A DNA stretch of 47,967 nt from a virus. Shown here piece by piece: positions 5,241-47,817 of this stretch. The DNA is taken from positions 1 through 47,967 of the IMG/VR virus record IMGVR_UViG_3300005918_000033. The stretch is one strand, 5' to 3'. The notes beneath the pieces were generated by a model, which saw only the letters and a list, made by a program, of their open reading frames with translations, was not told where the DNA came from and did no database searches. Every line of letters begins with the position of its first letter. The first letter of the stretch is position 1. Made by a program: the position numbers and the translations under genes.

Positions 5241-5710
5241 TGTTTTGTTTTATAGAGTATTTGTTTAATTAGTAAAGGTAAGTCTGTATTATCTGGCCAC
5301 GGATTAGCTAAGAACCACCGCCAAATAATTACCCGAACTCTGTTAGTAAAGGCAAGTTTGTATTCTAAGCTAGTCCCGGCAACTACAGCTGTATGCCTAT
5401 TTAATAAGGTAATTTTATCATGGCAGGTTTTGCAAAGAAATACAGTAATTGGTGGGGTGTAAGTGATATGGTGTACTTGAAGATGGAAGGCTCTGTTACA
5501 ATTTATACAGTTGTTTTTGAAATCATGTCTCCACGGGCCGGCCAGTCTTTCAGTCCTGGATTTTTTGTTTTCAGGTTTAGTCTTAGGAAGCTTCTTTCCA
5601 ATCGACTTTGTTAACAAGTCCATAAAGGTGACTTTATTGCCAGAAACGTCAAATAATGACTTTGTCAGCTTACTTCCTTTTTCAAACTTAGGATGAGAAA
5701 TCATTATCAT
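5153..5710 (-). CDS. HNH-type endonuclease-like protein
   Basis: I choose the ATG at 5710 (alternative 5704), because GGAG lies just upstream and it overlaps the preceding gene only slightly; the open frame extends further but would lie within that gene. About 185 residues. The centre has CINC, then HHITY, then LCKTCHDKI, the HNH/zinc-finger layout with two CxxC pairs and the HH catalytic motif. Flanks are basic. HNH proteins next to small-terminase-like genes are common in phages, where they can assist packaging or act as homing nucleases. The last ~30 codons form half of the interlocked inverted repeats. Confidence 0.7.
   Translation of the reverse strand: MIMISHPKFEKGSKLTKSLFDVSGNKVTFMDLLTKSIGKKLPKTKPENKKSRTERLAGPWRHDFKNNCINCNRAFHLQVHHITYTPPITVFLCKTCHDKITLLNRHTAVVAGTSLEYKLAFTNRVRVIIWRWFLANPWPDNTDLPLLIKQILYKTKQVIPRKKNPRNVLLRGCDVSARNKLSRYH
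5641..5668 (+). repeat. Dispersed palindromic element inside the HNH gene
   Basis: CAGAAAC-GTCAAATAATGAC-TTTGTCAG with core at 5648-5660, antisense to the gene and in its N-terminal part, upstream of the HNH motif. The central bases deviate from the other copies, but both flanks match. Confidence 0.55.
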
Positions 5711-6179
5711 CAATCTCCGCAAGTCGTGTTGAGAAGTCTTTTTCCAGAACTTCTGGCGCTGTTTCGTCAGTAAACTCTGCATCTTCAAAGTCTGTTTCCT
5801 TGTGATCTTTAACAACACCTTCTTGCTTTTCCATATATACCAAGTGCGCAACCAAGCCTTTTATTTCACTGGGTTTGCCTTCGATTACTTGTTCCTTGTC
5901 TTTCAAAATCTTGTAAGACATTACCAAGTCCCGAAGTGAAGCATTTTCTATCTTATCCGGCGTGATTGCTTCAAGGCATCTGGCCTGCAGCTCAGTGAGT
6001 TGGAGGCTTTGGATTTCTCTGTACTGCAGAAGCACTCCTTGCTTTTTACTTAAATCCGCGATTCTAGCCCGAAGCGTGGGCTGGGATATACCGAGTTCAG
6101 TAGCAATTACAGGTATAGTTTCCCCGCGATCCAGCAAATCCAACGCAACTTCCATATCCACGAATTTCTTTCTAGACAA
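5688..6179 (-). CDS. Helix-turn-helix protein, candidate small terminase subunit
   Basis: 163 residues. Residues ~12-42 read as an HTH (VALDLLDRGETIPVIATELG then ISQPTLRARI). The middle has LRDLVMSYKILKDKEQVIEGKPSE, a helical segment of a kind seen in phage small-terminase and related HTH proteins. The C-terminal ~45 residues are acidic. It overlaps the upstream 62-residue gene by 8 bases and is followed by an HNH gene, a familiar packaging-region neighbourhood. No large terminase follows within the window, so the terminase assignment is tentative; a transcriptional regulator is the alternative. Confidence 0.5.
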   Translation of the reverse strand: MSRKKFVDMEVALDLLDRGETIPVIATELGISQPTLRARIADLSKKQGVLLQYREIQSLQLTELQARCLEAITPDKIENASLRDLVMSYKILKDKEQVIEGKPSEIKGLVAHLVYMEKQEGVVKDHKETDFEDAEFTDETAPEVLEKDFSTRLAEIDDNDFSS

Positions 6180-6360
6180 GTCTTTTTTCCTTTAAAAAGT
6201 TTTCAACAAAGCTAAATACCTGCTCTAACGCTTCTTCATGCGTATACAAAGCCTTTTTATTTGCAAGATCTTCAGTTGTATAGCCTTCAAATGAATCTCT
6301 TGTACTTTTGCTTATATCCTTAAATGTCAGAATCTTTTTTAAAACTTCTGTTGCTTTCAT
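6172..6360 (-). CDS. Hypothetical small acidic-helical protein
   Basis: 62 residues, almost entirely helical by composition (MKATEVLKKIL at the start, EEALEQVFSFVENFLKEKR at the end). It overlaps the start of the HTH gene by 8 bases, so the two are probably translationally coupled. No recognised motif. A regulatory or adaptor role is possible but unproven. Confidence 0.6.
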   Translation of the reverse strand: MKATEVLKKILTFKDISKSTRDSFEGYTTEDLANKKALYTHEEALEQVFSFVENFLKEKRLV

Positions 6361-6369
6361 AAAAAACCC

Positions 6370-6624
6370 TTAAACTAAAATTTTACAAGTTGGTTTTTGA
6401 TAAACATTATCGCTGGAGCCTTGGCGTGTACAGTTTCCAGCGGGGCCGGGGCTATATCTTACACAAAGTTCTTCTTTTCCGTTTGCTTCGCAAAAGTAAA
6501 CAACCTGTAGTTTTATAAAGTCTTGCTTAGCTTCTAAGGCTTCAGCTTGCAACTCTTCTAAAGGTATAACTTGCATTGGAGCTAAGCTTCTCTCTAAACC
6601 ATTTGTTAAACTTGCAGTATCCAT
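6370..6624 (-). CDS. Hypothetical protein, first gene of the left minus-strand operon
   Basis: 84 residues with a helical N-terminal half (PLEELQAEALEAKQDFI) and a C-terminal half with three Cys in ~30 residues (ELCVRYSPGPAGNC and TCKI). It is the promoter-proximal gene, ~60 bases downstream of a good sigma70-type promoter on the minus strand. Family not recognised. Confidence 0.6.
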   Translation of the reverse strand: MDTASLTNGLERSLAPMQVIPLEELQAEALEAKQDFIKLQVVYFCEANGKEELCVRYSPGPAGNCTRQGSSDNVYQKPTCKILV

Positions 6625-6685
6625 CTACCTTCTCCCAAACTTGTTTTGTGTGACCTTTTCAAAGTTTACTTTGATTTTATAGTTT

Positions 6686-6714
6686 ACCATATCACGGTAT
6701 TTTCTAGAAGTCAA
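6686..6714 (-). promoter_or_regulatory. Sigma70-type promoter for the left minus-strand operon
   Basis: On the minus strand, TTGACT (6714-6709) and TATGGT (6691-6686) are separated by exactly 17 bases, matching five and four of six consensus positions. The first gene starts at 6624, giving a short leader. Confidence 0.6.
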
Positions 6715-6729
6715 TAACTATTTTCTAGA
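6698..6729. repeat. Paired 11-bp direct repeats around the promoter -35 box
   Basis: TATTTTCTAGA occurs at 6698-6708 and 6719-6729, start to start 21 bp, about two helical turns. Each contains the palindrome TCTAGA. They bracket the -35 box at 6709-6714, an arrangement expected for an operator or activator site. Confidence 0.6.
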
Positions 6730-6959
6730 TATGAAAGATAATTTCGTCAGTATATTTCGCCGGTGGTATGGGTGAAACAAGCCAAGCGCAGCGCGCTTGT
6801 AAGACCTTGGGTCTATTTTGCCCTTTGGGGGAATCTGGGGCTATCTATACAGAATACAAAAGGAAGATGGCCCTCGCACCCCCGCCTGAATCAAATTCAT
6901 TAAATAAGGGATTGGTCATTGATTGACTGACATTCATTGTTTGCAAATGGTTTAGAGGT

Positions 6960-7170
6960 TGAGTCGTGACTCAGTAGATGAACACAAGCCATTTACTGAA
7001 TATGATTCAGTGGAATACAGCCATGCCGCTGAATGATATTCATTAATTAAGTATAGTTCATTATGAATGTCTGACATACAATGAATACAATTCACAGAAA
7101 GAATAGGGTTCATTCCGAACGCTGACATACTTAATGAGTACGGAGTCAGTGAATGAATCTTGGTTCACTG
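6960..7170. repeat. Array of TGAAT/ATTCA palindromes
   Basis: TGAAT-N3-ATTCA occurs three times: 6997-7009, 7030-7042 and 7082-7094. Related palindromes are TGAGTC-gt-GACTCA (6960-6973), TTCAT-t-ATGAA (7057-7067) and AGTGAA...TTCACT (7148-7169). CTGACATAC also occurs twice, near 7071 and 7122. The spacing is irregular (33 and 52 bp). Candidates are initiator iterons or repressor operators. Confidence 0.55.
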
Positions 7171-7333
7171 TTTAGTTCTCCATTCAGTGTTTAGTATGAA
7201 GCACTAAGTATTAAATCTCGGAACGTTTTGTGTGGCGGATTAGCTGCAGATTTGATGGATATTGATCGGTAGATTTGATTGATATACGGGCGTAAAGGTG
7301 AACAAAAAAATCAATTTTACGGGGTTCACGTGA

Positions 7334-7399
7334 CCAAAATCGAACGCATTTGATTTATTGGTATCGTAGTATGCATTTCAAAAATGCGTTCAATTTTGG
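7334..7399. repeat. 18-nt inverted repeat
   Basis: Arms at 7334-7351 and 7382-7399 are complementary except for one position that can form a G-U pair, with a 30-base loop. It lies between the TGAAT palindrome array and the 23-bp direct repeat. Confidence 0.6.
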
Positions 7400-7453
7400 G
7401 CAAATCACAACCATGTATCCTTTTTCATACAGTGGTTTATTATTTTGAATTTC

Positions 7454-7559
7454 CTAACCCATTGATTTTATTCAATTTTTCAAAAGCTGGTTCAATATAA
7501 TAAACATTCAGGTCTTTGTCGAATTTTACCAATTTTCTAACCCATTGATTTTATTCAAT
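7454..7559. repeat. 23-bp perfect direct repeat
   Basis: Identical 23-base copies at 7454-7476 and 7537-7559 (beginning CTAACCCATTG), start to start 83 bp. They immediately precede an AT-rich tract and the early promoter. Confidence 0.75.
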
Positions 7560-7584
7560 AAATTAAAATTTTATTTTATTTAAG

Positions 7585-7613
7585 TGCTTGGCATATCCAT
7601 TGCATATTATACT
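7585..7613 (+). promoter_or_regulatory. Candidate early promoter
   Basis: A good -10 box TATACT (7608-7613) lies ahead of the whole plus-strand block. The -35 is weak: TGCTTG at 17-bp spacing, or TTGGCA at 14-bp spacing. The position, after a long AT-rich stretch and before a structured leader, supports a promoter more than the -35 match does. Confidence 0.4.
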
Positions 7614-7623
7614 GGTACGAAGG

Positions 7624-7760
7624 CGGATCGTATAATCCGACCAGTCGACCGTATTGAATACGGGAATCAGGTTCACGCCCGCGCAAATGCGCGTAATGAT
7701 CTTTTAAAAATAACGATAATCAGTTTTACGCAGAAAGGGCAAAGCCCTTAAAATATCGTT
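7624..7760 (+). promoter_or_regulatory. Structured 5' leader with successive hairpins
   Basis: Perfect stems: CGGAT/ATCCG (7624-7639), CCGTATT/AATACGG (7649-7663), GCGC/GCGC (7681-7692), and AAGGGC/GCCCTT (7735-7749), the last enclosed by AACGATA/TATCGTT (7712-7718 with 7754-7760). No U-tract follows, so these look like leader structures, not terminators. Confidence 0.45.
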
Positions 7761-7768
7761 CATAAAAA

Positions 7769-8397
7769 GCCCATATTTTTTATAATGAATCTGTTTTCAA
7801 AATTCAAAACAAGTTTTGAAGGGGGATTTATCATGGCAAAGCGTATAATTAGTTGGGATCTGTTCGGTTCAATCCTTGAAATGGGAAAATATATTGATTC
7901 AGACACACCAGCAACAAAACTTTGGAGTTTTGATCTGGCCGATATATATCCTGAATTTTTGAAGTTCAATAAAGTACAAAAATATCTGGTTGTTTACGGA
8001 GTTAAGCAGAATCTGGCAGATGCTGGCGCAATGGAAAAAACTGCCGATGCAAAAGTGATTTTGGCCAAGGCAAAGTGGGAATTGTTTCTGAAAGGTGAAA
8101 CCAGTGATAAGAGGGTCAATGCCACCGGAGCAGCTGAGAATAAAAAGGCTGTAAACAGTATGAAAGCTAAGGCTGAAGTTGTTTCCCTCGAAGGCCTTAT
8201 GGCCAAAAAGCTTCTGGACAGTGAAAACTTCACTGATGAAGATCAAGCGAAGCTTGATGAGTTTATCAGTATCCAAGCAAAGCATCTGGCCAGCGAAGCA
8301 GAAAAGAAAGTTGAAAACGATAAGTTTGAGGAAGCATCGAAAAAGAACAAAAAATAATCAATTAACTGAAAACAGGTTTATTATAAAGAATATGGGC
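7769..8397 (+). repeat. 31-nt inverted repeat enclosing the first early gene
   Basis: Arms 7769-7799 and 8367-8397 are complementary over 31 bases with three mismatches, and all three form G-U wobble pairs on the plus-strand RNA. They flank the 174-residue gene exactly, one in its 5' leader and one just after its stop. No target-site duplication is obvious. Confidence 0.65.
7833..8357 (+). CDS. Early protein, copy 1 of family A (paralogue at 18655-19092)
   Basis: 174 residues starting MAKRIISW. I choose the ATG at 7833, preceded by GGGGGA, over the in-frame ATG at 7785, which lies inside the inverted-repeat arm. The core (~residues 29-85) contains LWSFDLADI, YGVKQNLADAGA and KWELFLKGE. It matches the later 145-residue protein in LVFDFASL, YGLSQKLGDAAAG and VWEGLKSG, so these are paralogues. 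The C-terminal ~60 residues are Lys/Glu-rich and helical. It is the first gene of the early block and is enclosed by a 31-nt inverted repeat, suggesting special dosage or timing. Molecular function unknown. Confidence 0.75.
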   Translation: MAKRIISWDLFGSILEMGKYIDSDTPATKLWSFDLADIYPEFLKFNKVQKYLVVYGVKQNLADAGAMEKTADAKVILAKAKWELFLKGETSDKRVNATGAAENKKAVNSMKAKAEVVSLEGLMAKKLLDSENFTDEDQAKLDEFISIQAKHLASEAEKKVENDKFEEASKKNKK

Positions 8398-8425
8398 AAA
8401 AGCGGAGCTTTTGATGTATTCATTT

Positions 8426-8453
8426 AAGAAAGGTCAATATTTGACTTTTTGTC
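8426..8453 (+). repeat. Dispersed palindromic element, intergenic copy
   Basis: Core GTCAATATTTGAC at 8433-8445, with upstream AAGAAAG and downstream TTTTTGTCTT flanks shared with the other copies. It lies between two early genes, upstream of the ribosome binding site of the 77-residue protein. Confidence 0.7.
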
Positions 8454-8482
8454 TTAACCAAATAAATGAAGGAGACTTAAAA

Positions 8483-8716: not shown

Positions 8717-8725
8717 AAAACAAAA

Positions 8726-10359: not shown

Positions 10360-10572
10360 ATGCCAAAATTCACACCAAAACCTTTAATCAAAAAACCTTT
10401 AACTAAAATACCTAAATCTAAAGATAGATGCATTTGTGTTCTTGTTAATGAAGAAGTACACAAAAAACTAAGTATGTATGCAGCTATACATAACTTACCA
10501 ATTAGAAATATTGCAGAAGAAGCAATTTTTGAGTTTATTTATAAATACGAACCTGAAAGAAGGGAGAACTAA
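10360..10572 (+). CDS. Ribbon-helix-helix-like DNA-binding protein
   Basis: 70 residues. Start ATG at 10360 after AAAGGAG (an in-frame TTG lies 6 bases earlier). The N-terminal 24 residues are Lys/Pro-rich. Residues ~25-62 fit a ribbon-helix-helix: strand CICVLVNEEVH, helix KKLSMYAAIHN, helix RNIAEEAIFEFI. Such proteins act as dimeric repressors or plasmid/phage copy-control factors. It precedes the 167-residue family B gene by 3 bases. Confidence 0.6.
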   Translation: MPKFTPKPLIKKPLTKIPKSKDRCICVLVNEEVHKKLSMYAAIHNLPIRNIAEEAIFEFIYKYEPERREN

Positions 10573-11341: not shown

Positions 11342-11464
11342 ATGAAAATTTATGGTTTATCAAAGCAGCAAAAAGAAAAAAGGTTAAACTATCTGCAGAA
11401 AACAAACTCCACATCCAGATGGATTAAATATTTAAAGTACCATTTACGAAAATCAACCAAGTAA
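11342..11464 (+). CDS. Basic miniprotein, 40 aa
   Basis: Lys/Arg-rich chain (MKIYGLSKQQKEKRLNYL...WIKYLKYHLRKSTK) after AGGAG. The charge suggests nucleic-acid binding. The palindromic element begins right after its stop. Confidence 0.5.
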   Translation: MKIYGLSKQQKEKRLNYLQKTNSTSRWIKYLKYHLRKSTK

Positions 11465-11488
11465 AAAGGTCAAAAATTGACCTTTCTG
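11460..11488 (-). repeat. Dispersed palindromic element, intergenic copy, reverse orientation
   Basis: The core at 11469-11481 reads GTCAATTTTTGAC on the minus strand, with the shared CAGAAAG upstream and CTTTTTACTT downstream flanks. It lies between two plus-strand genes. Confidence 0.7.
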
Positions 11489-18654: not shown

Positions 18655-19092
18655 ATGGCAAAAGGAAAAGTTCAAGAACAAGATGTTCCACAGGAAGAAG
18701 TAGCAACTCCGGAAATAGCACCTGCAAAGAAGAAAAAGAAACGTTTAGCTAAAATCATCGAAGGAACTGTCCTCACTATCAAAGAGGCAATTACCGAGTC
18801 AACCTTGGTCTTTGATTTTGCAAGTCTGCCGGAAAACATTCAGGCTTTGCTTGGGCCTTACGGGCTGAGTCAGAAACTTGGAGATGCAGCTGCCGGGAAG
18901 TCCGGGCAAACAGCTGTAGACTCCATTAACAAGGTTTGGGAAGGCCTGAAGTCTGGGAATTGGAGTGTCAGGGCTCCGGCTGCCGAGAAGATTTCCAAAA
19001 AATCTATTCTTGGTAAGTTTGAGGAAATGCCTGACGGCCCGGAGAAAGATATGGCAGCTACGCTGCTTAAAAACCTGGGTATTCTTTCCTAA
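18655..19092 (+). CDS. Early protein, copy 2 of family A
   Basis: 145 residues. A Lys-rich N-terminal tail (~1-35, KKKKKR) precedes the family A core: LVFDFASLPENIQ, YGLSQKLGDAAAGKSG, VWEGLKSGNWSVRAP. The paralogue at 7833 has the same core with a different tail. The basic tail suggests nucleic-acid contact. It lies immediately before the nuclease and recombinase genes, hinting at a replication or recombination role. Confidence 0.7.
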   Translation: MAKGKVQEQDVPQEEVATPEIAPAKKKKKRLAKIIEGTVLTIKEAITESTLVFDFASLPENIQALLGPYGLSQKLGDAAAGKSGQTAVDSINKVWEGLKSGNWSVRAPAAEKISKKSILGKFEEMPDGPEKDMAATLLKNLGILS

Positions 19093-20150: not shown

Positions 20151-20180
20151 AAGAAACGTCAAATTTTGACCATTTGTCTG
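20151..20180 (+). repeat. Dispersed palindromic element, intergenic copy
   Basis: Core GTCAAATTTTGAC at 20158-20170 with AAGAAAC upstream and CATTTGTCTG downstream. It lies between the nuclease and the Sak4-like gene. Confidence 0.7.
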
Positions 20181-25470: not shown

Positions 25471-25500
25471 AAGAAAGGTCAATATTTGACTAAATGACTG
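25471..25500 (+). repeat. Dispersed palindromic element, intergenic copy
   Basis: Core GTCAATATTTGAC at 25478-25490 with AAGAAAG upstream and TAAATGACTG downstream. Confidence 0.7.
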
Positions 25501-33010: not shown

Positions 33011-33040
33011 TTTAGAAACGTCAAATTTTGACCTTTTTAC
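33011..33040 (+). repeat. Dispersed palindromic element between two virion genes
   Basis: Core GTCAAATTTTGAC at 33019-33031 with TAGAAAC upstream and CTTTTTACTG downstream on the plus strand, opposite to transcription here. It lies between the 2634-residue and fibre genes. Confidence 0.7.
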
Positions 33041-36000
33041 TGTTTAACTTTTACAGCTTTAACCTTAACTTGTTTAATTCTTACAGCTTTAACTTTTGGT
33101 GTGGCTATTCTTATTGCATTTTGGCTTCTTTTCTTTTCTGCTCTTTCTTCTTGTATTCTTTCTGCCCCTTTTCCAAATCTATAGTAATAAATCTTTCCTA
33201 CAAGAGGAATTGACTTCGTTGTCTCAAGTCCCTTTTCATCTCCAGCTGTAAGAATATCTTTACTTAACGAGTTTACAATTTGTGTCGGAGGAAGCATTTG
33301 CTCCATTAAAGCTTTACCAAGACCTTCTCTTCTAATTCTTCTTGTTGTATATCTTGATATTGCAAAATGTGCAAGCCTGTTCAAAAACAAATCAGAGAAA
33401 TCAACCGGCTTACCCCTTAATAAATCCTGCAGCATATCTCCCGTTGCTTCCATCAGGGTTAGAAAGAATACAATTTTAATAAGGTTTCTAAGTCCACTTA
33501 ATCTTTGTCCTTTTGTTGCTATTTGTCTGAAAACCTTTCGTCTATATACATCAAACTTCTTCAAGTCAAAAGACTTCAGCATATACGCAATTCTGAAATT
33601 CCCACCTTCAATAAATCCCTGTGGAAGTTCTGAAAGTGTAGCTGGCTGATACTCGGAAAGTTTCCTTAGCAGATAAAGCCTAACATCTCTCGAATCACCT
33701 TGGTCTCTAAATGTCTTAAGTAGCTCGTTTGTTTTCTTACCAAAGATTGGCGCAAGTTCTTCCCAGAATTTATCAACAACTTTACTGTTTGTTGATTTTG
33801 CTCTTCGTACAGCTACATCATATGAAGCATTTATTAAAGTTTCCTTACCAATAGCATCTATTTTAGTTAGCCAAATCATTCTAAATACTCTATCAACGGC
33901 CTTTGCTGAAGTAGTTTTATCGCTAAATTCAGCTCCGATTTTACTAATCCCAAGTGATTCTTTAGTAAATTCTGATTTTCCTACTAAGGCCCTTGGAAAA
34001 ACTTTCACTGTAGGAATCACTCCACTTTCTATAAAAGACCAAGCAATATCACCAACTTGCCTGAGAGCTGAAAACGGACTTCCCATTACATCTATAACAG
34101 ATAGATTTTTTATTGTAGTAACAATTCCACTGGTTCCAACTGGATTAAATCTTGCTTTTAAAATTGAACGGAGTTCAAGTTCTTGACTTGGAGTTAATTT
34201 TTTCTCTTTTACAAGATCTAAAACGTACGCTCCGATTGTATTGTTTAGGTTGAAAAGCTCAGATTTCTTATCTACACCTTTCCCAAAAATTTTCCTTGAT
34301 TCTACAGCAATAGTTATATCTGCAATGTAACGTAAAAGAGCACTGTTTGAATCACCAAAGAATTCATTCATCTCCGGTGTAAGTTTTCTCAGCTTCCTAA
34401 TCTTCAACTGTCCAGGCTTTGACAAAGTAATTCTCTCATCTGCATAACCTCTAAACAGTGAATTTACTAAATTAATTTCTTCTTCTCGTGTCAAAGACCT
34501 TTTCTTCTTTGCAGCATGAGCTTTAAGAAACAAGTCTATTGTAGACCATTTGTCTTTTCTGTGCAAATAATCCATAAGACCTTCAAAATCTTTAACTTCT
34601 CTTGGATGATATTCTTCCAAGTAGTTAAACTTATAACCAGCTTTTAAAGCATACTCCCGAAGTCCGTCAAGCAATAACCTAATTTGTTTATACTCTCCTG
34701 CAACTTTAGGATATTTCTTTAAATATATATCAATCTGCTTTTTGTTTGAGTTCTTTCTTGCTAAGTCAAAGTTTTTGTAGTCAAATTTTGTCATTTTGCT
34801 AGTAGACTTAATAAAAGGAAGCGCTAACCTTATAAGGTTTTCTATTTTAGTATTGCTGTCTAACTCAAATTCTATTAGTTTGTTTTTTATAGTTGGATGG
34901 ATATTTTCTGCTCTGGTAGTAAGTGCTCCAAGTTGTCTATCAGCAAACTTACCTGTTCGTTTTAAAGCTCTGGAAAGTTCTTTAGTAGTAACAGAACCTC
35001 TCTCATCCATCACTGGCTTAGCGGCTTTCAAACTTTTCCACACTTCTTGAATATACTTCTTCACCTTTTCCCAAGCATTGCCTAAGGCAGACTTCATCTT
35101 CTTTTGCCAGTCGAAGTATCTTTGCTTGGAGCCTGTGTAGAAGCTCTCACCGAGTTTTTGCAGGTGTGGAATAGCTGCTTTTATATCCTTGCCAGTTTTG
35201 ACAATAAGTCTAACAGCTTCTACTGGATCAAGACCTGAATAAAGCTTAGTCCCTTCTCCGCCCTTAACTTTAAGTATATCTCTAAACGGGCCTGAGTCGA
35301 GAATAGAAACTTTGTTCATGGCTTTTACTTCTGGGGTGATAGGAGCGAACCAGACCTTTTCAGAATTCTTTCTTGCAGGGCCAACAGACTCTAGTCCAGC
35401 CATAGGCCCACCTGGGATACTAGATCCTACTTCTGTCTCCCTCAACTCAGCCTTTACACCATATTCTGCCTTAACCATCTTAGGAATTTGTTCTTCGTAA
35501 AGCCGCTTGAACATGTTGGCGTCTACTAGTATATTACCATGACTTCCACCTGTTATTTCACCTGTCTTCTCTTGTGCTTCTATAGTTCTTCTAACCTTCC
35601 CACCTGCAAATTTTCCTACTTCATCTAAATCCTTAAATCTATTTTGGACACCAATTGATCTTTCATCTTTATAGAATTCTACCTTATAACCAACATCATG
35701 AAAATTTACTGTATGCCCACGTTTTCGTTTCTCCCAAGTCATTTTATCAGCAAACTTACCATACCTATCCGCAAGTATCTCCGCAGTGCTCCAGCTAATC
35801 CCATCCTTATCTTTCTCAATAGCCTCATTCATCATATCTCGGACAACTAACTTAAACCAGTCTTTCTTGAAAGGCATGTTAGGTACACCTTCACCTGAGG
35901 ACTTTGCACCAAGTTCATGAATCTTTACAGATGCATCATCTTTCTTTATACGCGCATCTATAAACCTACCAGCTTCTCCATCAAGTTTAAGATTTATTCC

Positions 36001-39000
36001 AGTATTAATTGCATTATCAGCTATTTCATGTACAACTTTAGCAATAGGCCCAGGCCTTAGTTCATCTTTATTTAGAAAATTTCTTATTGTTACTGATGTT
36101 CTAACAGATAGAAAGCCCCCACCATCTTCATTTATTCTATATAATTCTTTTAACGCAGTTCTATTCTCTTCTCTAAATATCTGATCAGTTAAAAGTTTAC
36201 TTCTTTCTTTAATTGTTACTCCAGCTTCTTCCCAATTATGGAATATACCACTCTCTATTTCATCATACTTTTCGTACTTTACCTTAGCCACTGCCAGTGC
36301 TTTAACAGCTTCAGTATCTACCTTAACCTCACTTTTAAACCCTTCAGCACTTCCCCTTTCCGCTTGCACACTTTGTATCTCATCTCCATGGATAGTCTTC
36401 TCACCTGTAACCATACTTCGTTCATGTGAACGGTTAGTTGCAAAGACGCCCCAGCCTTGCTGATCAAAGTGTTTTTCTTGAAATTGACTATAAGATTTTC
36501 CTACTTCTACTTGATCTGCATACTTAAACAACGTTTCCTTATAATTCTTTATATCACCGTCTAGAGTTAAAGTAGGGTACCTATTTGGAGGAAACTTAGC
36601 TGGAGTAATGTATATATTTTCAGTTCCTTCTTCTATTACCCACTGGTCAAGCACAGTCTTCTCAATATGAATACCTTTAATTTTACTTAAAAGATTCTTC
36701 CACCCACTTACTCTCTCAGTCGGTTTAAAGCCCAACAATGCACCTTCAATACCACTGATTTTCAAATCTTCATTTTTAACTCCAGTCTTCTTCAGTTGAT
36801 TCAACAATGTTCCAGCTTTAGGATTCTTACCAAACAATTTCTCTAGAGAAGAAATATCAACTTCTCCTCTTTGGTTTTTAACCGGATCAAGTAAAGATTT
36901 AATCGCATCACTAACCTTTACTCTTTCCCAAACTGCTGCAACTTGGTTTTTTACTTTAGCCCACAAATCTCCAAGGCTTGCTTTCATCTTTGCTTGCCAG
37001 TCAAAATACTTTTGTTTACTTCCAGTATAATGTTTTTCTCCAAGTTGTTGCAAATGAGGTAAAGCTTGTTTTATACCCTTGCCAGTTTTGACAATAGCTT
37101 GTATTGCTTCTACTTCACCTTTAGGTAATCCTTCCACCGCTGGTACAGTTCTCTTTCCATCTTTGGTAAGTTGTCTATTGGGAAGACCTTTAACACCGTC
37201 TTGAAGTCCCTCCCCATGGACTGATATGTCTTCAAGATCTCTTGTAATGCCTTCAATTCTTTCTCCGAAATCTTCATAAAACCTCCTCATTCTATCAGAT
37301 AACTTGTAAAGTCCTTTATGACCATAAGCAGCATAAATTCTTGCTACTTCAGCAGCAAATCCCTCCGCATGATTAAACTCCGCCACATGGCTATATTCAT
37401 GTACTAACGTATGCACCATCATATCTGCTTGAAGTCTGTTAGTATCTTCTCCAGCTTTAACAGCTTGACTAAACGCAGTAGATTCAGACATTCTAGTTGA
37501 TATATTAAAAGGGTTAATAGCATATAAGTCATACCCTGTTAGTTTCTTATCAGACTTATAACCAAATACACCAGTATCTATAGTTATATGAAAGTCAGTA
37601 GGACTATCACCAAGATATCTTAGCTTAGTTGTAAACTGCTTCATTAATTTAGAAAAGGCTCTTATTAAATCTGCATTAGCTTTAATTATAGCCATTGCAT
37701 CAGCAAAAGCTTGGCCTTCATAAGGAATTAGTACCTTAATCCCATCAAACTCCGGAGACCTTTTAACCATCTCTCCAAAATTTGCTCCACGCTCTTTTAC
37801 TAAAGCGTTTCTAATATCATCATGTACTCGTTCAAGTATAGAATCAAGTATATCTACAAAGTCTTCTCTTAGTTCAGTTCTATTTTTCAGAAATGGGTAA
37901 TCTTCATCTCTAACACTAGGAGTTTCTTCAAAATCGATTATTACTTCATAGTCTGGTTGTACTGGTAAACTACCACCTTTAAGTCTTCCAGTTCTAACAT
38001 CTACTATCAAACCCTTGTTAGTAATCATACGATTAATACTAATATCACCACCACCCCAAGACATACCATACGGTTCAGTTTTTACATGATAAATAGTTAC
38101 CTTTGATCCTTTGTGAGAAAAACTTTCAGGTCTTACTTTTTCAGGCTCATTCGCTAAGTTTTTAGCTTTAAACAACGTATTCCTAACCACACTATTATCC
38201 ACAGGACTTAATAAATCGTATGAAATGTCAGCTGTTGACCAAGTACCTTTAGTAACTCCTTCAACAGCTTGAGTTATATCATAACCGCTAATAGTACTGT
38301 TGTTTATTTTATATGGAAGAGTTGCAACAAAAGATGTTCCACTAGGTTCATTAGTTCTAGAAGGAGTAATTGTAATTTTTCCATTATAAATTTGCTCTCT
38401 GGTAGCTATAACAGTAGATTTAATTCCATTCTTTACAGTCTCTAGTTTAATCTTTTTAGGGATTAATAAAAGAGCTATTTTAGCAAGACCATATCCGCCT
38501 CTAGTTGTAGTACCAGATTTACCGATACTCCCACCAACTAAGAAAAACTTTTTAACTTCTTCAGTTGACATTCCAAAACCATTATCACTAAAAGTTAATT
38601 CTCCTGCTATGCCTGGAGTTGTATTATTATTTTTAAAAGATACATTTACTCTACCGTCTATATTAATAGCATCTAACGAATTCTGCATTAATTCATAAAT
38701 CATTGTTTTAGATGGATTCTGATTAGCTATGTCTTTAAGCAAAGTTGGAAGTAAGTTAGTTTTATCCAGAGTAAATTCTGTTTCTACAACTTTAAGCTCT
38801 TCTACTTCTTTAGGAACTTCTTGCCTACTCTCAACAACAAGCCCTGTAAAAATGTTTCCTTTAGGCTCCTTAATGTTTTTAACTCCTTTAATATCATTAA
38901 GCAGCTCAATAGATTGTTTAACTGGGCTTTGCTTCTCAGGCAAAAGGTCAACTTTTGACGTTTCTTGAATCACAAACCCATCTTTTACTTCCTTAACTCC

Positions 39001-40941
39001 CCAACCCTTACCCTTTTTCACAGCTGCTTTTTCTGCGTAATGCTTCATTGTCCAAGGTACAACTTTACCTTTCTTATAGCCGGGCTTGCCAAGGATTTGA
39101 GGAAGCGGAGCTTCTTTTTTTACTTCTACCTTTTTTACTTCTTTTGCTTCTCCCTTCTCCCCTTTAAAGCTTTCAAACCTTTCAAGCTCGTCTATTTCTT
39201 CGACTTTCTTTCCGCCTTTAACTACCTTTAATCCAGCTTTCTTATTTTCTTTATCCGTAGCTAAAAAGATTTTGTCTAAATTAGCATTAGCATATTCCGC
39301 CGGTGGCTCGTCAGCAGTTAATTGATCTACTATACTACCAGTTTCTTTTTCAATTATATCCCACTTATATTCATCACTAGATGATTCTCTAACTATATAA
39401 TATTCAGACGAATCTTTTCCTTCTTCCTGTAAGAAAATATCATCATCAGATTTCTTTTTTTCTTCTGTTTTCTTTACTTCTTTCTTCTCCTTCCCAAACT
39501 TCAACTCTCTTCTTTGAAAAACCCACCTGTCATCTTTCTCAAATACTTTATACTCTGTAGGATCAGCACCAGCTCTTTGTCCAGCAATTTTCATCTGCTT
39601 AATTGCTTCTTTTTTAGAGTCAAAGCTTGCTGTACTTACATCATACGGACCAGTCTTTACTTCAGCTATTTCAGTTACTTTATCAAGTTCAGCATCTCCG
39701 CCGTAAGCTTTAGCTGCTTGCTGCCGAGCGTATTGGCTTACAGCGTCTTTGTTTGTATATTGCTTCTTTACTGCTTCAAGACTTCCAAGTTCTTTCACCT
39801 TAGTATCTACAAAAGTCTTTTGCTCTGGAGCTATTTTTATTTCGGTAGGGGTTTTCTTTCCAACTGCTTTCTTCTTCTCTACAGCTTTCTTTTTAGCTGC
39901 TTCAAACGCTTTTACTGCTTTCTTAGGATCTAAATTTATTGTGTCTTCCATTTCTGCCGCAACTTCTTCAGGAGTAACTTCTGGTTCTTTTTCCTTTGGT
40001 TTTGGTTTTTCTTCTCCTTTAGTTCGTTTAGCTAAACTCTCTTTAAAATAACTATCAGACTTTTTAACAAGCTCAGCTTCTGAAAGATTAGGGTTCTTTT
40101 TAAGTACTTCTTCAAGACTTTGTACCATTAAACCACGTTCTTTTATTGTGGCCTTTCTGTATAAAGTAGAATCTCTTACTTTCTTTACAGCAGCTGGAAT
40201 CTTCCCTATAGCAAAACCACCAGCTTCAAACACACCAAACAAAGCCATAGTTTCAAGCGTTCTGTCTTTCTCGCCTTCACCAAGTAATGCACCACCAATC
40301 ATACCTTTTAGAATTGCTCGATAAAATGGTCTAGCTTGTGAAGTAAGTTTTGCTGTTATTAAACCACCAGCTTTTAATGCTACTGATGCTGGTCCAAGAA
40401 ATCCTACACCTTCTCCGGTCGCTCCAATAATATCAGCAATGGGAATATCATCAAGTTTTTCTAAACTAACACCTTTTTCTTCATCGTATGCAAGTCCTAC
40501 ATTAGGTACGCCTACACTTGGAAGTTTTTTACGCCAGTATTCTGCTGCTACTTTAAGTACATTTTCAGTATCCATTCCAAGAGTTTTTAATGGTTTTAAT
40601 GTAGGCCCCATAATACCTTGTACTGCTTTGACAGCTAAATATGGAGCATAAGCAAGAAGATTTTTATCGTCTTTTTCTTTCTTTTCAACCACTGGCTCCA
40701 ACTGCTCTGCCATTGCTTGAATTTCTTGCTCAGGTAAATCTGGATACTGAAGTTTCAACTGCTCTACATCAGTATTGTCTATTGGAAGCTTTGCTTCAGG
40801 AACAGGAAAAGCCACAAGTTTCCCCGCAGCATCAATATGCTCCGAAGCTTCAGCTTCAAAGTCTAACTCTGGCAAACCCTGCAAACCAGGCTGCTTAACT
40901 TCTTGATCAAAATTAAGTTCAGGTAAATTACCAAGATTCAT
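33037..40941 (-). CDS. Giant polyvalent virion protein (2634 aa) with GHKL ATPase and HExxH modules
   Basis: The N-terminal ~750 residues are charged and linker-rich (GEEKPKPKEKEPE). A Bergerat (GHKL) ATPase follows: N-box ELMQNSLDAI (~750), G1 SDNGFGM (~785), G2 GGYGLAK (~817). H1181-E-Y-S-H1185 is a zincin motif (LVHEYSH). A unit PHLQ.LGE..YTGSKQ.YFDWQ occurs twice (~1285 and ~1917). Between the copies are EIQS (~1519) and PFKKDWF (~1690), recalling a recurrent domain of phage polyvalent proteins. The last ~450 residues resemble their LPD38-like helical end, finishing in repeated Lys-Val-Lys units. Probably packaged and injected with DNA. It overlaps the upstream gene (TAATG). Confidence 0.8.
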   Translation of the reverse strand: MNLGNLPELNFDQEVKQPGLQGLPELDFEAEASEHIDAAGKLVAFPVPEAKLPIDNTDVEQLKLQYPDLPEQEIQAMAEQLEPVVEKKEKDDKNLLAYAPYLAVKAVQGIMGPTLKPLKTLGMDTENVLKVAAEYWRKKLPSVGVPNVGLAYDEEKGVSLEKLDDIPIADIIGATGEGVGFLGPASVALKAGGLITAKLTSQARPFYRAILKGMIGGALLGEGEKDRTLETMALFGVFEAGGFAIGKIPAAVKKVRDSTLYRKATIKERGLMVQSLEEVLKKNPNLSEAELVKKSDSYFKESLAKRTKGEEKPKPKEKEPEVTPEEVAAEMEDTINLDPKKAVKAFEAAKKKAVEKKKAVGKKTPTEIKIAPEQKTFVDTKVKELGSLEAVKKQYTNKDAVSQYARQQAAKAYGGDAELDKVTEIAEVKTGPYDVSTASFDSKKEAIKQMKIAGQRAGADPTEYKVFEKDDRWVFQRRELKFGKEKKEVKKTEEKKKSDDDIFLQEEGKDSSEYYIVRESSSDEYKWDIIEKETGSIVDQLTADEPPAEYANANLDKIFLATDKENKKAGLKVVKGGKKVEEIDELERFESFKGEKGEAKEVKKVEVKKEAPLPQILGKPGYKKGKVVPWTMKHYAEKAAVKKGKGWGVKEVKDGFVIQETSKVDLLPEKQSPVKQSIELLNDIKGVKNIKEPKGNIFTGLVVESRQEVPKEVEELKVVETEFTLDKTNLLPTLLKDIANQNPSKTMIYELMQNSLDAINIDGRVNVSFKNNNTTPGIAGELTFSDNGFGMSTEEVKKFFLVGGSIGKSGTTTRGGYGLAKIALLLIPKKIKLETVKNGIKSTVIATREQIYNGKITITPSRTNEPSGTSFVATLPYKINNSTISGYDITQAVEGVTKGTWSTADISYDLLSPVDNSVVRNTLFKAKNLANEPEKVRPESFSHKGSKVTIYHVKTEPYGMSWGGGDISINRMITNKGLIVDVRTGRLKGGSLPVQPDYEVIIDFEETPSVRDEDYPFLKNRTELREDFVDILDSILERVHDDIRNALVKERGANFGEMVKRSPEFDGIKVLIPYEGQAFADAMAIIKANADLIRAFSKLMKQFTTKLRYLGDSPTDFHITIDTGVFGYKSDKKLTGYDLYAINPFNISTRMSESTAFSQAVKAGEDTNRLQADMMVHTLVHEYSHVAEFNHAEGFAAEVARIYAAYGHKGLYKLSDRMRRFYEDFGERIEGITRDLEDISVHGEGLQDGVKGLPNRQLTKDGKRTVPAVEGLPKGEVEAIQAIVKTGKGIKQALPHLQQLGEKHYTGSKQKYFDWQAKMKASLGDLWAKVKNQVAAVWERVKVSDAIKSLLDPVKNQRGEVDISSLEKLFGKNPKAGTLLNQLKKTGVKNEDLKISGIEGALLGFKPTERVSGWKNLLSKIKGIHIEKTVLDQWVIEEGTENIYITPAKFPPNRYPTLTLDGDIKNYKETLFKYADQVEVGKSYSQFQEKHFDQQGWGVFATNRSHERSMVTGEKTIHGDEIQSVQAERGSAEGFKSEVKVDTEAVKALAVAKVKYEKYDEIESGIFHNWEEAGVTIKERSKLLTDQIFREENRTALKELYRINEDGGGFLSVRTSVTIRNFLNKDELRPGPIAKVVHEIADNAINTGINLKLDGEAGRFIDARIKKDDASVKIHELGAKSSGEGVPNMPFKKDWFKLVVRDMMNEAIEKDKDGISWSTAEILADRYGKFADKMTWEKRKRGHTVNFHDVGYKVEFYKDERSIGVQNRFKDLDEVGKFAGGKVRRTIEAQEKTGEITGGSHGNILVDANMFKRLYEEQIPKMVKAEYGVKAELRETEVGSSIPGGPMAGLESVGPARKNSEKVWFAPITPEVKAMNKVSILDSGPFRDILKVKGGEGTKLYSGLDPVEAVRLIVKTGKDIKAAIPHLQKLGESFYTGSKQRYFDWQKKMKSALGNAWEKVKKYIQEVWKSLKAAKPVMDERGSVTTKELSRALKRTGKFADRQLGALTTRAENIHPTIKNKLIEFELDSNTKIENLIRLALPFIKSTSKMTKFDYKNFDLARKNSNKKQIDIYLKKYPKVAGEYKQIRLLLDGLREYALKAGYKFNYLEEYHPREVKDFEGLMDYLHRKDKWSTIDLFLKAHAAKKKRSLTREEEINLVNSLFRGYADERITLSKPGQLKIRKLRKLTPEMNEFFGDSNSALLRYIADITIAVESRKIFGKGVDKKSELFNLNNTIGAYVLDLVKEKKLTPSQELELRSILKARFNPVGTSGIVTTIKNLSVIDVMGSPFSALRQVGDIAWSFIESGVIPTVKVFPRALVGKSEFTKESLGISKIGAEFSDKTTSAKAVDRVFRMIWLTKIDAIGKETLINASYDVAVRRAKSTNSKVVDKFWEELAPIFGKKTNELLKTFRDQGDSRDVRLYLLRKLSEYQPATLSELPQGFIEGGNFRIAYMLKSFDLKKFDVYRRKVFRQIATKGQRLSGLRNLIKIVFFLTLMEATGDMLQDLLRGKPVDFSDLFLNRLAHFAISRYTTRRIRREGLGKALMEQMLPPTQIVNSLSKDILTAGDEKGLETTKSIPLVGKIYYYRFGKGAERIQEERAEKKRSQNAIRIATPKVKAVRIKQVKVKAVKVKQ
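38938..38966 (-). repeat. Dispersed palindromic element inside the giant gene
   Basis: On the minus strand AAGAAAC-GTCAAAAGTTGAC-CTTTTGCCTG (core 38959-38947), read in frame as ETSKVDL. It lies before the GHKL domain, in the low-complexity linker, where insertion would be tolerated. Confidence 0.65.
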
Positions 40942-43278: not shown

Positions 43279-44360
43279 GCTGCCTCCTTTATTTTTTCAA
43301 GCGCTGGGTATTGATAAAGCCCCTGACTTACAATGTAATCAAGAAAAGCTTTGTCTAAATACTCAACTTGCTTGTCTGTAATTAATCTATTCTTTCCATT
43401 TTTTGTGCCTATGAACGGCTGAACAAGTTGAGGAAATACATAATACTTTTCTGGAATTCTTTTTATCTCTTGTGCTATATCTGCATAGCTTTCATCTTCA
43501 AAGCCAAGCAAAACATTACCGTGATATTTAATTTTGTACTTATGTAATAAGTCTAAGGTCTTATAAATATCTTCTACCTTAACTCTCTTATTTATCTTAT
43601 CAAGCCTTTCCTGATTAAACGATTCAATACCAACAATAAAATAATAACAATTTGCTTCTTTAGCAGCTTTTACCATTTCCTCGTCAAAAATATCACAGCG
43701 AATACTCGCTCCCCACTCTAAATTCTTTCCTTTCAACCACTCACAGACTTTCATAAATCTAGGCTTAGACAGATTAAAAGTATTATCGTTAAATACTATA
43801 GTATCAATTTTATATTTTCTTTTGTAAAATTCAATTTCTCCAAAAACCTTTCCCAAACTTCTAGTTCTAAATTTACAAGTCTGAGAACAAAAAGTACAGT
43901 TGTATGGACAACCTCTAGAAGTCAGAATACCCATATACTTATTATCATGTCTTTTATGATATTCTTCTATTCCAAAGCCTGCGTAATCCGGCCAAGGAAT
44001 AAAGTCAATATTTGACGTTTCTTCGAACTCACCTTGAACTACTTGATCAACATACTTTTTCATAATCTCTGGAAGAAAGGTTGCAAGTGCTCCACCCACA
44101 ACAGTCCAAATTCCCAACTCTTTACAAATCTTAGCATCTCGAATAATGTACTTAGCAAATTCCTCAAACCCCGTAAACAACACAGCATCCTGGTTTTTTA
44201 CTTCCTCTACAAAATCATAATCAAAGAGATTATAATTCAGCACTTTAACCTCATGCTCTTGTTTCTTTAAAACACCTGAAACATACATAAATCCCAGCGG
44301 ATAACAACAAGGATCACTAAGAGGTACATCGTATTTATGGCAAACTAAACAAATTTTCAT
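43275..44360 (-). CDS. B12-binding-type radical SAM enzyme in the virion operon
   Basis: 361 residues. The N-terminal ~115 look like the Rossmann B12-binding domain of class B-type radical SAM proteins (VVGGALATFLPEIMKKYVD, VVQGEFEE), though the cobalamin-binding DxHxxG His motif is absent. The radical SAM core has GCPYNCTFC with C151, C155, C158 for the 4Fe-4S cluster, then FNDNTFN and FIVGIESFNQERLDKINK. No SPASM-like Cys cluster is seen. It overlaps the fibre gene stop (TAATG) and the GNAT start. A palindromic element lies in frame between its two domains. Confidence 0.85.
   Translation of the reverse strand: MKICLVCHKYDVPLSDPCCYPLGFMYVSGVLKKQEHEVKVLNYNLFDYDFVEEVKNQDAVLFTGFEEFAKYIIRDAKICKELGIWTVVGGALATFLPEIMKKYVDQVVQGEFEETSNIDFIPWPDYAGFGIEEYHKRHDNKYMGILTSRGCPYNCTFCSQTCKFRTRSLGKVFGEIEFYKRKYKIDTIVFNDNTFNLSKPRFMKVCEWLKGKNLEWGASIRCDIFDEEMVKAAKEANCYYFIVGIESFNQERLDKINKRVKVEDIYKTLDLLHKYKIKYHGNVLLGFEDESYADIAQEIKRIPEKYYVFPQLVQPFIGTKNGKNRLITDKQVEYLDKAFLDYIVSQGLYQYPALEKIKEAA
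43996..44023 (-). repeat. Dispersed palindromic element inside the radical SAM gene
   Basis: On the minus strand AAGAAAC-GTCAAATATTGAC-TTTATTCCTT (core 44016-44004), read as ETSNIDF. It falls exactly between the B12-binding-like and radical SAM domains. Confidence 0.65.
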
Positions 44361-45325: not shown

Positions 45326-46743
45326 ACTGTACACTCCTCAAGCTCAGCATACGCACCAAGCATAACAACTTTCACTGGATCTGAAATTGTTAATCTCAAA
45401 ATTCTATTCCTTGATTTTCCCAACCTTTTCCACGCAACTCTAGTTTCGTATTTACCAACTTTTCCAATATCTTTCCAATACTCGTTTGACCAAGTATGTC
45501 CACCATCATCTGACCACTGAAGCATAGCCTGCGGATCTTCTCCCTGTACACCGCCAGTAAGTCCAACACCAGTTTCAAAATCAACTTCTAACCTATGCCA
45601 AATAACATTTAGTCTTTCTTTATTTATAACTTGAGTAGCTCTAATTCTGCGTATTTCATATGAATTATCTGTATAAACACTCATCTTCAGTTCATATAAA
45701 ATACCATTCTCGTAATCTCCTACAATTTGCTTACTATCAAAAGTTATACCATCAATAGCTCTATGCCTACCCCAAGGAGTTCTATCTGTAGTTGTAGAAT
45801 AACTTTGCCATTCATGCCAAAATCCTGTAGTAATATCGTAAACCCAGACTTTATCTTCTGTCGGAAAAACCAAGACATAAAAAACATGCCCTGCTATTGT
45901 ATACGTGAAGGCTTTTGCATCTAACACAGTACTATATGTTGATATTTGATACTCAATGTGTGAGGTTGAAATTACCTGTACTTGATACCCAGAATTTCTT
46001 ACAACTTTATTCTTGTTTGAAAACCAATAAAGGTTTCCGTCAATACTAAGTAAAGAGTCCGGAACATCAGTTCCTATATCAATAACTGCACCAGAAATTC
46101 TAACAAAAGGAAAATCTACATTTCCAGAATCATAAAATATCTCTGTAGTTTTTTCTCCAAAAATCCAAAGATCATGAGAATTAGATAACACTCTAACTGC
46201 ATCATCTGGATTAGCCTCCGCTGAAGCAAAGTCTAATGCATCCCAAGATGTCCCATCGTACGAACCAGAGATATAAATTGTTCCAGAACTTGATGTAATA
46301 ATAAAATACCCATCCTGGTAAGTAGCACTCGAAGCAACTGGGAAATCTGCATCTGCAATTATTGCTAGCACATCCGCTGTAATTAAATACCCACTCGCTG
46401 TCCCATCAACTATAATAACTTCTGTACCATTATCAGCCATAAAGACCGCACCAGTTGTTGTAGTAATGTCACCAAGATCAGTTGCTGTTCCATCTGTGTC
46501 TACAGAATAAACAGTTGCTCCAGATACAACATAAAGAATACTTCCAAAAACATGCATACATCTAATAGGGTATGTAGTACCTGCTGTAAGAGTACTAAAA
46601 ACTTCAAGTCCAGGTGTTCCATACAGCACTGTATCATTCTTTGCTCCTATCTGATCAACAGAAGGAAATAAATTTATGCACTTCTGCGCATTAACATTCG
46701 TACTGCGTTCTGTATACGCCCCTCCAGTAAACGGCAATTCCAT
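45322..46743 (-). CDS. Packaged-DNA stabilization protein (P22 gp10-like)
   Basis: 473 residues, close to the ~470 of P22 gp10, the hexameric tail hub that keeps packaged DNA in place. Features: the NLFPSVDQIGAKNDTVLYGTPGL start, repeated beta-propeller-like strands (GNLYWFSNKNKVVRNSG, VWVYDITTGFWHEW), and a C-terminal IRRIRATQVI, HRLEVDFETGVG, WSDDGGHTWSNEYW, RVAWKRLGKSR pattern shared by this family and related phage tail hubs. It follows the gp4-like gene by 4 bases, the P22 order. Confidence 0.85.
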   Translation of the reverse strand: MELPFTGGAYTERSTNVNAQKCINLFPSVDQIGAKNDTVLYGTPGLEVFSTLTAGTTYPIRCMHVFGSILYVVSGATVYSVDTDGTATDLGDITTTTGAVFMADNGTEVIIVDGTASGYLITADVLAIIADADFPVASSATYQDGYFIITSSSGTIYISGSYDGTSWDALDFASAEANPDDAVRVLSNSHDLWIFGEKTTEIFYDSGNVDFPFVRISGAVIDIGTDVPDSLLSIDGNLYWFSNKNKVVRNSGYQVQVISTSHIEYQISTYSTVLDAKAFTYTIAGHVFYVLVFPTEDKVWVYDITTGFWHEWQSYSTTTDRTPWGRHRAIDGITFDSKQIVGDYENGILYELKMSVYTDNSYEIRRIRATQVINKERLNVIWHRLEVDFETGVGLTGGVQGEDPQAMLQWSDDGGHTWSNEYWKDIGKVGKYETRVAWKRLGKSRNRILRLTISDPVKVVMLGAYAELEECTV

Positions 46744-46747
46744 AATT

Positions 46748-47452
46748 TTATCCTATGTTTATGTTATAACTACCTCTAGACCCTGCAGGCACAATAATAC
46801 TTACAGGTTCTACGTAGTTTGCTGAATTTCTTGTTATAAGCCTATTATACGAACTATTTGCTATAGCTACAACACTTGCAGGAATTGTCTTTCCAAACTC
46901 CGGAGCAATTCGTACAGCCAAGTTATAAATAATAGGTTCCTCATATATTACTGGCATGCTGAGTGTATCAGCTACAGTCTCAAACGAGCTAGTTTCTGTA
47001 AAGGGTTTCAAACTCTCCAAAACCAAAGACTCAGCAGCCGACGGAACCGGGTAGACATAGACAATAATTAACGGATAGGTGTAACTCAAATAACAACTAT
47101 GCGGTCTTCCGCTGGTAGTTTTAGATGATATTTTTCTATACTTCCCCTCAGAAATAATATCTACTGCATGAGTAATATCTGAGCTATCAAGAACAGCTGC
47201 ACCTATCAACTGGTTAGGTCGCAAAGAATCTATATCCCCGCCGTCACCCCAGGTATACGCCCCTGTTGCAGCAACTAACGCATGCGTCTCGTACACAGAA
47301 GAAAAGACATTAATCTTCTCAGCTGACCAAGACCTTAACATCGACTGCAAAGCAGATAAACAATCTTCTTGTTCTTCTGGTTCAAGATTCTCTCCGCTTG
47401 CTTTAACACCAAGCTTTCTTGCCGAAGCATTTATTACTTCTGAGACTAACAT
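46748..47452 (-). CDS. P22 gp4-like tail accessory factor / head completion protein
   Basis: 234 residues. VSEVINASARKLGVKASGENLEPEEQEDCLSALQSMLRSW is the typical N-terminal helical region of gp4-like proteins, which join portal and tail hub. IIVYVYPVP and EEPIIYNLAVRIAPEFGK are also family-like. In P22 gp4 also has muramidase activity; no active site can be confirmed here. It overlaps the upstream 121-residue gene by 1 base. Confidence 0.8.
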   Translation of the reverse strand: MLVSEVINASARKLGVKASGENLEPEEQEDCLSALQSMLRSWSAEKINVFSSVYETHALVAATGAYTWGDGGDIDSLRPNQLIGAAVLDSSDITHAVDIISEGKYRKISSKTTSGRPHSCYLSYTYPLIIVYVYPVPSAAESLVLESLKPFTETSSFETVADTLSMPVIYEEPIIYNLAVRIAPEFGKTIPASVVAIANSSYNRLITRNSANYVEPVSIIVPAGSRGSYNINIG

Positions 47453-47817
47453 TATTTTTCACCCTTTTTTGTTTTCTTGTCAGAAAGGTCAGATTTTGAC
47501 TTTTTGTCTGAAAGCAATGATCCAAAGACAGGTTTTTCTTTTTCTTCCAGCTCTTTCTCCCTCTTATCTAAAGCCTTCTCTCTTTCATCCAAAAGTTCTT
47601 CCCTAGTTTTCTCTTTTCCTTTAAAGCCAGCTGGTGATTCAACCCATCCAAGCTTAAATGCTTTTTCCTGCTCTGACTTAGTTTGAAATACTTCTCCAGT
47701 ACGATTATCATTATGGTAAAGCCTTTTTGGCCAACCAAATTCAGGATCTATTACTTTAGCCTGCTTTACCTTTTCTACTTTAACACCTGATCTAAGTAAC
47801 CTGTTATTACTAGGCAT
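47452..47817 (-). CDS. Coiled-coil protein between coat-like and gp4-like genes, 121 aa
   Basis: Start ATG at 47817 after AAGGAG (the longer frame starts within the hairpin). The N-terminal half includes DPEFGWPKRLYHND. Residues ~68-100 are a Glu/Lys coiled coil (REELLDEREKALDKREKELE). The C-terminal SDKKSKSDLSDKKTKKG contains the palindromic element. Possibly a head-completion or structural adaptor. Not recognised. Confidence 0.6.
   Translation of the reverse strand: MPSNNRLLRSGVKVEKVKQAKVIDPEFGWPKRLYHNDNRTGEVFQTKSEQEKAFKLGWVESPAGFKGKEKTREELLDEREKALDKREKELEEKEKPVFGSLLSDKKSKSDLSDKKTKKGEK
47481..47510 (+). repeat. Dispersed palindromic element inside the coiled-coil gene
   Basis: On the plus strand CAGAAAG-GTCAGATTTTGAC-TTTTTGTCTG (core 47488-47500), antisense to the gene. 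It encodes part of its Lys/Ser/Asp C-terminus. Confidence 0.65.

Follow-up and report, generated by a model that had tools for sequence, protein, structure and literature searches.

A short palindromic element is repeated nine times in the window, i.e. the whole stretch of DNA analysed here, a linear virus record of 47,967 bases with 37% G+C, and we asked which protein may read such an element and what its dispersal over the genome may serve. The gene content of the window is that of a short-tailed phage, with a DNA polymerase, a DUF3987-type primase, a Sak4-like protein and P22-type tail genes, and terL lies beyond the contig end. An earlier note, made from the letters alone, had proposed a genome-wide protein-binding site comparable to phage stoperators, a packaging or segregation signal, or a dispersing palindromic mobile element.

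The element and its copies in the window

Analysis of the window recovered all nine copies that had been located before, with one coordinate corrected from 33019 to 33020. The copies are 29 bp long and conform to (C/A)AGAAASGTCAA-WWW-TTGACYWTTTNNCTK, in which the core is palindromic; since the half-sites are mirror images, the candidate binder presumably acts as a dimer. The exact core GTCAA-N3-TTGAC was found seven times in the window versus 0.04 expected, as estimated from 1000 second-order Markov shuffles, none of which had more than 2. A leave-one-out weight matrix gave 31-40 bits for seven copies and about 21 bits (21.3) for the best of 60 shuffles, the lower scores being those of the copies at 5648 (17 bits) and 11469 (14 bits in the orientation first assigned to it). 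The earlier note had allowed that random AT-rich sequence might give as many matches; shuffled sequence scanned with the matrix yields essentially no element, and AT-rich composition is excluded by these shuffles as the source of the copies. The flanks are conserved as claimed, AGAA, GTCA and TTGAC being about 98-100% invariant among 105 copies from 26 contigs. They also orient the copies; the strand of the 11469 copy should be '-', since on the minus strand its flanks match too (38 bits).

The copies and the two genes adjoining the first of them are as follows, G028 being a related phage described below.

5642..5670, plus strand: copy 1, at the junction between the stop of the terS-like gene (5688) and the start of the HNH gene (ATG at 5623)
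8427..8455, plus strand: copy 2, in the intergenic stretch that follows gene 7785-8357; same place in G028
11459..11487, minus strand: copy 3, intergenic, 38.4 bits on the minus strand versus 27.2 on the plus strand; same place and strand in G028
20152..20180, plus strand: copy 4, flanked by the genes for the PD-(D/E)XK nuclease and the Sak4-like protein; same place in G028
25472..25500, plus strand: copy 5, intergenic, upstream of the region of the DNA polymerase gene; same place in G028
33014..33042, plus strand: copy 6, overlapping the giant-protein gene (33037-40941) at its stop and the following gap; same place in G028
38937..38965, minus strand: copy 7, within the giant-protein gene, in frame (QETSKVD)
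43994..44022, minus strand: copy 8, read in frame as EETSNID within the radical-SAM/B12-binding gene; G028 has the same first seven codons
47482..47510, plus strand: copy 9, in the last codons of a 131-aa gene; the P22-gp4-like tail gene follows after about 30 bp; kept in L009
5688..6179, minus strand: terS-like gene, its product with an N-terminal helix-turn-helix, a helical remainder with a conserved middle, and an acidic C-terminus with a conserved end
5153..5623, minus strand: gene for an HNH-type endonuclease, following the terS-like gene (phrog_2340, E 2.5e-4), its start being the in-frame ATG after the site

Four copies had been placed inside protein genes. Clearly inside are only those at 38937 (giant protein), 43994 (radical SAM) and 47482 (131-aa gene), and the first two are indeed read as ETS(K/N)(V/I)D. 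The TerS/HNH junction is the most likely place of the copy at 5648, formerly assigned to the HNH gene, since this gene has an in-frame ATG at 5623, after the site; relatives of the window phage have a site at the same junction. The copy at 8433 precedes an AGGAG-ATG at about 8483. A different palindrome, GAAGC-N3-GCTTC, is present in five copies in the window versus 0.02 expected.

Conserved places and lineage-specific versions in relatives

Contig C511 of G028 (JAAELO010000512.1, 56.6 kb), binned with a Desulfobacterales MAG, carries a phage that is colinear with the window, its proteins being 34-79% identical. Seven of the nine window copies have a G028 counterpart in the same place and orientation, and for the eighth (38937) the giant gene of G028 contains a site too, at a position that is not alignable. 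At the radical-SAM site seven codons are identical between the window and G028, the average codon match for identical residues being 62%, which is no more than suggestive. The earlier note had let its claim stand or fall with conservation in related phages, and such conservation, of both place and orientation, is present between the window and G028. At the junction of a 174-aa and a 212-aa gene a site was found in 11/11 genomes (10/11 when counted from the second gene) despite differing site sequences. Places that persist while all copies of a genome change together are what a shared, co-evolving binding protein produces.

Scanning of IMG/VR with AGAAASGTCAAWWWTTGACYWTTT returned 30 stretches; 25 of the 26 records examined had copies, most of them several, and the reversed control pattern gave one match in total. 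With a weight matrix built from all contigs, 105 copies were detected across the 524 kb of the 26 contigs. Every copy exceeded 24 bits; another two matches fell at 8-12 bits, none scored between about 12 and 24 bits, and shuffles gave nothing above 10 bits. The highest count was 16 copies, in the 47 kb of G005. A motif-independent set of 68 loci was obtained by searching with the terS-like protein of the window, and 44 of these loci contained a site above 14 bits in the stretch examined.

The window copies are about 5 kb apart and the coefficient of variation (CV) of their gaps is 0.38 (p = 0.008 versus random placement). Among 18 contigs at least about 30 kb long, gap CVs ranged from 0.25 to 0.81 versus 0.74-0.91 expected; 17-18 of the 18 were under the mean random CV and all but a few were clearly more even, with p values of 0.003 for G430 and G451 and 0.001 for G459. 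The spacing in G005 and G006 was not significantly more even than random, and the combined p (5e-11) is inflated because the genomes are related. The 18 contigs have 1.5-3.4 sites per 10 kb, and their largest gap measures 12.6 kb. These genomes are almost wholly coding, and of 86 copies 59 lie between co-directional genes and 17 inside genes. The copies occur in both orientations relative to transcription, as had been noticed, and the counts (37 same, 39 opposite) are random.

Contigs lacking the window-type element carry other dispersed palindromes with the layout AG, four to six bases, core, mirror image and CT or CTG.

G430: ten copies of CAGYRACCRYGTCAAWWWTTGACRYCGCT
G438: ten copies of AGTTYGGTCANAATGTGACCRATSTTCTG
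G451: seven to eight copies of AGATARTTCAANNNTTGAAYTATCT
G453: seven copies, core GTCGA
G444 and G445: three copies each of a dispersed palindrome

A motif-free search for similar 25-bp palindromes repeated per genome revealed clusters of three to eight in a dozen genomes and at most one in shuffles, and added G437, G429 and G443 to the list. Desulfofustis phage MD01, complete in GenBank as OP947158, contains nine copies of TTGCTATGTCCCANNNTGGGACATAGCAA with at most one core mismatch, at 249, 2251, 7688, 15474, 23059, 29970, 37113, 41281 and 42977. No dispersed palindrome was found in the cultured relatives 119X and Microcystis phage Mel-JY34. A literature search retrieved no publication describing this element, which is not proof that none exists. 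In G437, TGTAC/GTACA repeats are clustered in about 400 bp (7019-7425), possibly as an origin-like array.

The TerS-like protein and its homologs in islands

The terS-like family alone occurs in all of the large contigs (21/21). In relatives its gene lies directly upstream of TerL (phrog_2) and a P22-type portal gene, with an HNH-type gene between in several of them, and it occupies the small-terminase position. Structure prediction of the monomer gave an all-helical model (mean pLDDT 77). A site within 200 bp of the terS-like gene was found at 21 of 28 dereplicated loci, where 24% would be expected (p = 3e-8, shared ancestry included), and a few other genes likewise have conserved neighbouring sites. 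Where the terS-like gene is divergent the elements are divergent too, with their architecture unchanged; the window type of the protein is AGAAAGGTCAA..., that of G451 AGATAGTTCAA... and that of Desulfofustis phage MD01 TTGCTATGTCCCA....

Covariation was analysed in 24 genomes, among which the distances are intercorrelated; the window phage, whose TerL is beyond the contig end, is therefore not among them. Site distance correlated with the distance between terS-like helix-turn-helix regions at r = 0.53. A partial Mantel test of site versus helix-turn-helix given TerL gave r = 0.44 (permutation p = 0.003), and that of site versus TerL given the helix-turn-helix gave r = -0.06. Correlations with TerL, portal, DNA ligase, the ParB-methyltransferase fusion and the second near-universal family were between 0.07 and 0.33, and the site sequence tracks the terS-like helix-turn-helix better than it tracks TerL, portal, primase, polymerase or the ParB-methyltransferase. 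A tail-gene family, present in nine genomes only, did as well as the helix-turn-helix (r = 0.69) and is, on this measure taken alone, a further candidate. The ParB domain had been proposed as a binder, a role for which the r of 0.11 between the ParB-methyltransferase fusion and the site sequence speaks poorly.

The second near-universal family, with the motif KLGDAAAGKxG (window 18655-19092 and 7785-8357), occurs in 20 of 21 large contigs, often in two copies per genome, and had no Pfam match. As a binder it was rejected (r = 0.11).

Searches of PHROG, Pfam and NCBIfam with the terS-like protein returned only generic helix-turn-helix matches; a PHROG named terminase small subunit was matched weakly by one of 47 family members (E 1e-3), and Foldseek with the model gave no significant whole-chain match. 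Since TerS families are very diverse, the missing profile or fold match weakens the name and not the role. The gene upstream of terL in 119X, Mel-JY34, VS-ABTNL-3 and ctMlz233 had no significant match to the terS profile. G453 and G023 carry the dispersed site together with a terS homolog in which no helix-turn-helix is recognisable; in G453 a separate 55-aa helix-turn-helix ORF at 18760-18927 might supply the missing domain.

Five matches to the element were found in the genome collection. One of them belongs to a Geobacteraceae MAG: L082, an island beside tRNA-Leu with a P4-type integrase, whose sole gene matching these phages is a 128-aa terS-like homolog without the acidic tail. Three tandem sites about 45 bp apart, plus a partial fourth, stand just upstream of that gene. 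This pairing of gene and sites is the strongest single pointer to a match between protein and element. A further 821 genome searches in three Desulfobacterota groups yielded four more islands with terS-like homologs, in which an integrase (in three of the four), a small regulator, a D5/DUF3987/DUF3631 replication protein and the terS-like gene follow the PICI gene order. No repeated site was found in four of the five islands. The PICI-like islands of Desulfobacterota are located as follows.

L235: 9483-14205
L236: 963-5706
L237: 41-4258
L220: 304-3400
L082: 174-3301

That some PICIs carry terS is described in PMC6092414, and the islands found here resemble the terS-carrying ones of that account in having terS homologs alongside integrase and replication genes; a passage of PMC10803314 describes PICMI satellites as being without terS and a recognisable pac. 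Restriction-modification-like cargo lies downstream of the island in L236, and L235 contains an IS66-like element. The hosts of the phages appear to be Desulfobacterota, and in host MAGs matches outside phage and island contigs were no more numerous than those of the reversed control pattern. Isolated full-consensus copies between genes were seen in L078 (1065-1088, Syntrophales MAG) and L080 (4434-4457, Deltaproteobacteria MAG), the latter followed shortly by a second palindrome, ACCAAGTCAATAATTGACTTGGT.

Packaging, regulation and organisation as possible functions

The claim of a genome-wide protein-binding site is well supported by conservation in place and by covariation with the helix-turn-helix. 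From these comparisons we give an even chance to the reading that the element is the site of a dimeric phage helix-turn-helix protein, most likely the TerS-like protein of 5688-6179(-), kept genome-wide in about ten evenly spread copies. The TerS-like protein is fairly well supported as the probable binder, by sequence-based inference, and the role of the element as a packaging or self-recognition mark is suggested with less certainty. As the element changes in step with the DNA-reading part of the protein, the copies look like docking sites for labelling or handling the phage's own DNA. A TerS-like dimer would bind the element at many points of the concatemer, and bound TerS would let TerL recognise phage DNA along its whole length and not at one pac site; satellites with the same mark would be recognised by TerL likewise. 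The most specific form of this proposal, a distributed packaging code in which TerS reads about ten even palindromic sites, all co-evolving, and satellites hijack the system with TerS-like proteins and copies of the site, is tentative and could well fail.

The terminase operon, the site adjoining the terS-like gene and the PICI-like islands are in favour of packaging; that the copies face both ways and that no TerS profile or fold match was obtained are against it. The earlier suggestion of a packaging signal agrees with the reading favoured here, though by way of a different candidate protein: the candidates then named were the proteins at 10360, 18448 and 14999 and the ParB domain. Known pac phages have one main pac site and package directionally. 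As in TerS-pac headful phages and in terS-carrying PICIs and SaPIs, a helix-turn-helix TerS-like protein lies upstream of TerL with an adjacent site; pac sites known so far are confined to one or a few local positions, whereas the element is repeated evenly genome-wide in both orientations. If a terminase adaptor does read genome-wide sites, it would be an exception to the textbook single pac or cos site per genome, bearing directly on how phage DNA is distinguished from that of the host and on hijacking by satellites.

The sites might also be distributed operators, through which a helix-turn-helix regulator (a repressor or late-gene regulator, possibly TerS doubling as one) would block or set transcription genome-wide, a reading we consider possible and rather doubtful. 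The stoperators of cluster A mycobacteriophages, described in PMC6550527 as lineage-specific sites diverging with the L5/Bxb1 immunity repressor, are the nearest known pattern, since both consist of many short conserved sites over a phage genome with lineage versions that diverge with a DNA-binding protein, and dispersed sites co-diverging with a regulator are, in that account, the stoperator hallmark. Most copies of the element are in gene junctions (59/86 between co-directional genes), and in the L082 island three sites stand in tandem right before the terS-like gene, as in autoregulation. Stoperators are short and asymmetric, number 20-30 per genome, follow the direction of transcription and bind a repressor in temperate phages; the element, unlike them, is 29 bp long with a palindromic core, numbers about 10 per genome, is random in orientation (37 versus 39) and evenly spaced, and is linked to the terminase operon. 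Some copies, moreover, lie mid-way in long genes, the candidate gene is in the terminase operon and not in an immunity region, and the related MD01 is predicted to be strictly lytic, as stated in PMC10370329. The stoperator analogy of the earlier note fits in part only: orientation to transcription is random here, and no integrase was visible among the large proteins searched in the incomplete window. A phage repressor binds the conserved inverted repeats of phiC31 and the c1 operators of P1, which are dispersed and highly conserved as well. Both of these phages are temperate and have a known repressor; the gene linked to the element is terS-like, and no repressor turned up. Should the protein be a regulator, a terminase-operon gene would control the genome at ten places, which would also be new.

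Marks that organise or segregate the phage chromosome, bridged or labelled by a protein at regular intervals, would account for sites that are palindromic, orientation-neutral and evenly spaced genome-wide with no gap above about 13 kb. The sites of MatP/matS, SlmA and Noc are such palindromic, orientation-neutral marks spaced over a replicon; those are chromosomal and read by other protein families, whereas the element is phage-borne, and with the best candidate binder in the TerS position and an r of 0.11 for the ParB-methyltransferase we regard this function as unlikely. Dispersal of a REP- or MITE-like palindromic mobile element would fit sites that are short, scattered and mostly intergenic, as well as the two isolated copies in other bacteria (L078, L080). 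The same places and orientations are occupied in the window and G028, and the 174-aa/212-aa junction in 11/11 genomes; spacing is even, the sequence diverges in step with the protein, and the element is not widespread in host chromosomes. As far as tested, mobility is refuted by the conserved places and the turnover of site sequence in place, and we hold it to be highly improbable. Recognition by a host factor is barely credible: few data bear on it beyond the apparent Desulfobacterota hosts, and against it stand the lack of excess in host MAGs over the reversed control and the differences of the element between phage lineages.

That all sites of a genome change together while keeping their places is a natural experiment in protein-DNA co-evolution. 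Whether the protein serves packaging or regulation, MD01 (OP947158), a complete public genome, shows the same dispersed-site pattern.

Promoters or terminators were ruled out for the element by its random orientation and the copies inside genes.

Other repeats were noticed in two further phages. In ctMlz233 (L226), from the wider phage group, a TTTAC-N6-GTAAA palindrome occurs five times, at 475, 18883, 31479, 36646 and 38794. Vibrio phage VS-ABTNL-3 (L227) has eleven copies of the 16-mer AATTATACAATTCAAA (at most three mismatches), often paired and possibly representing phage promoters.
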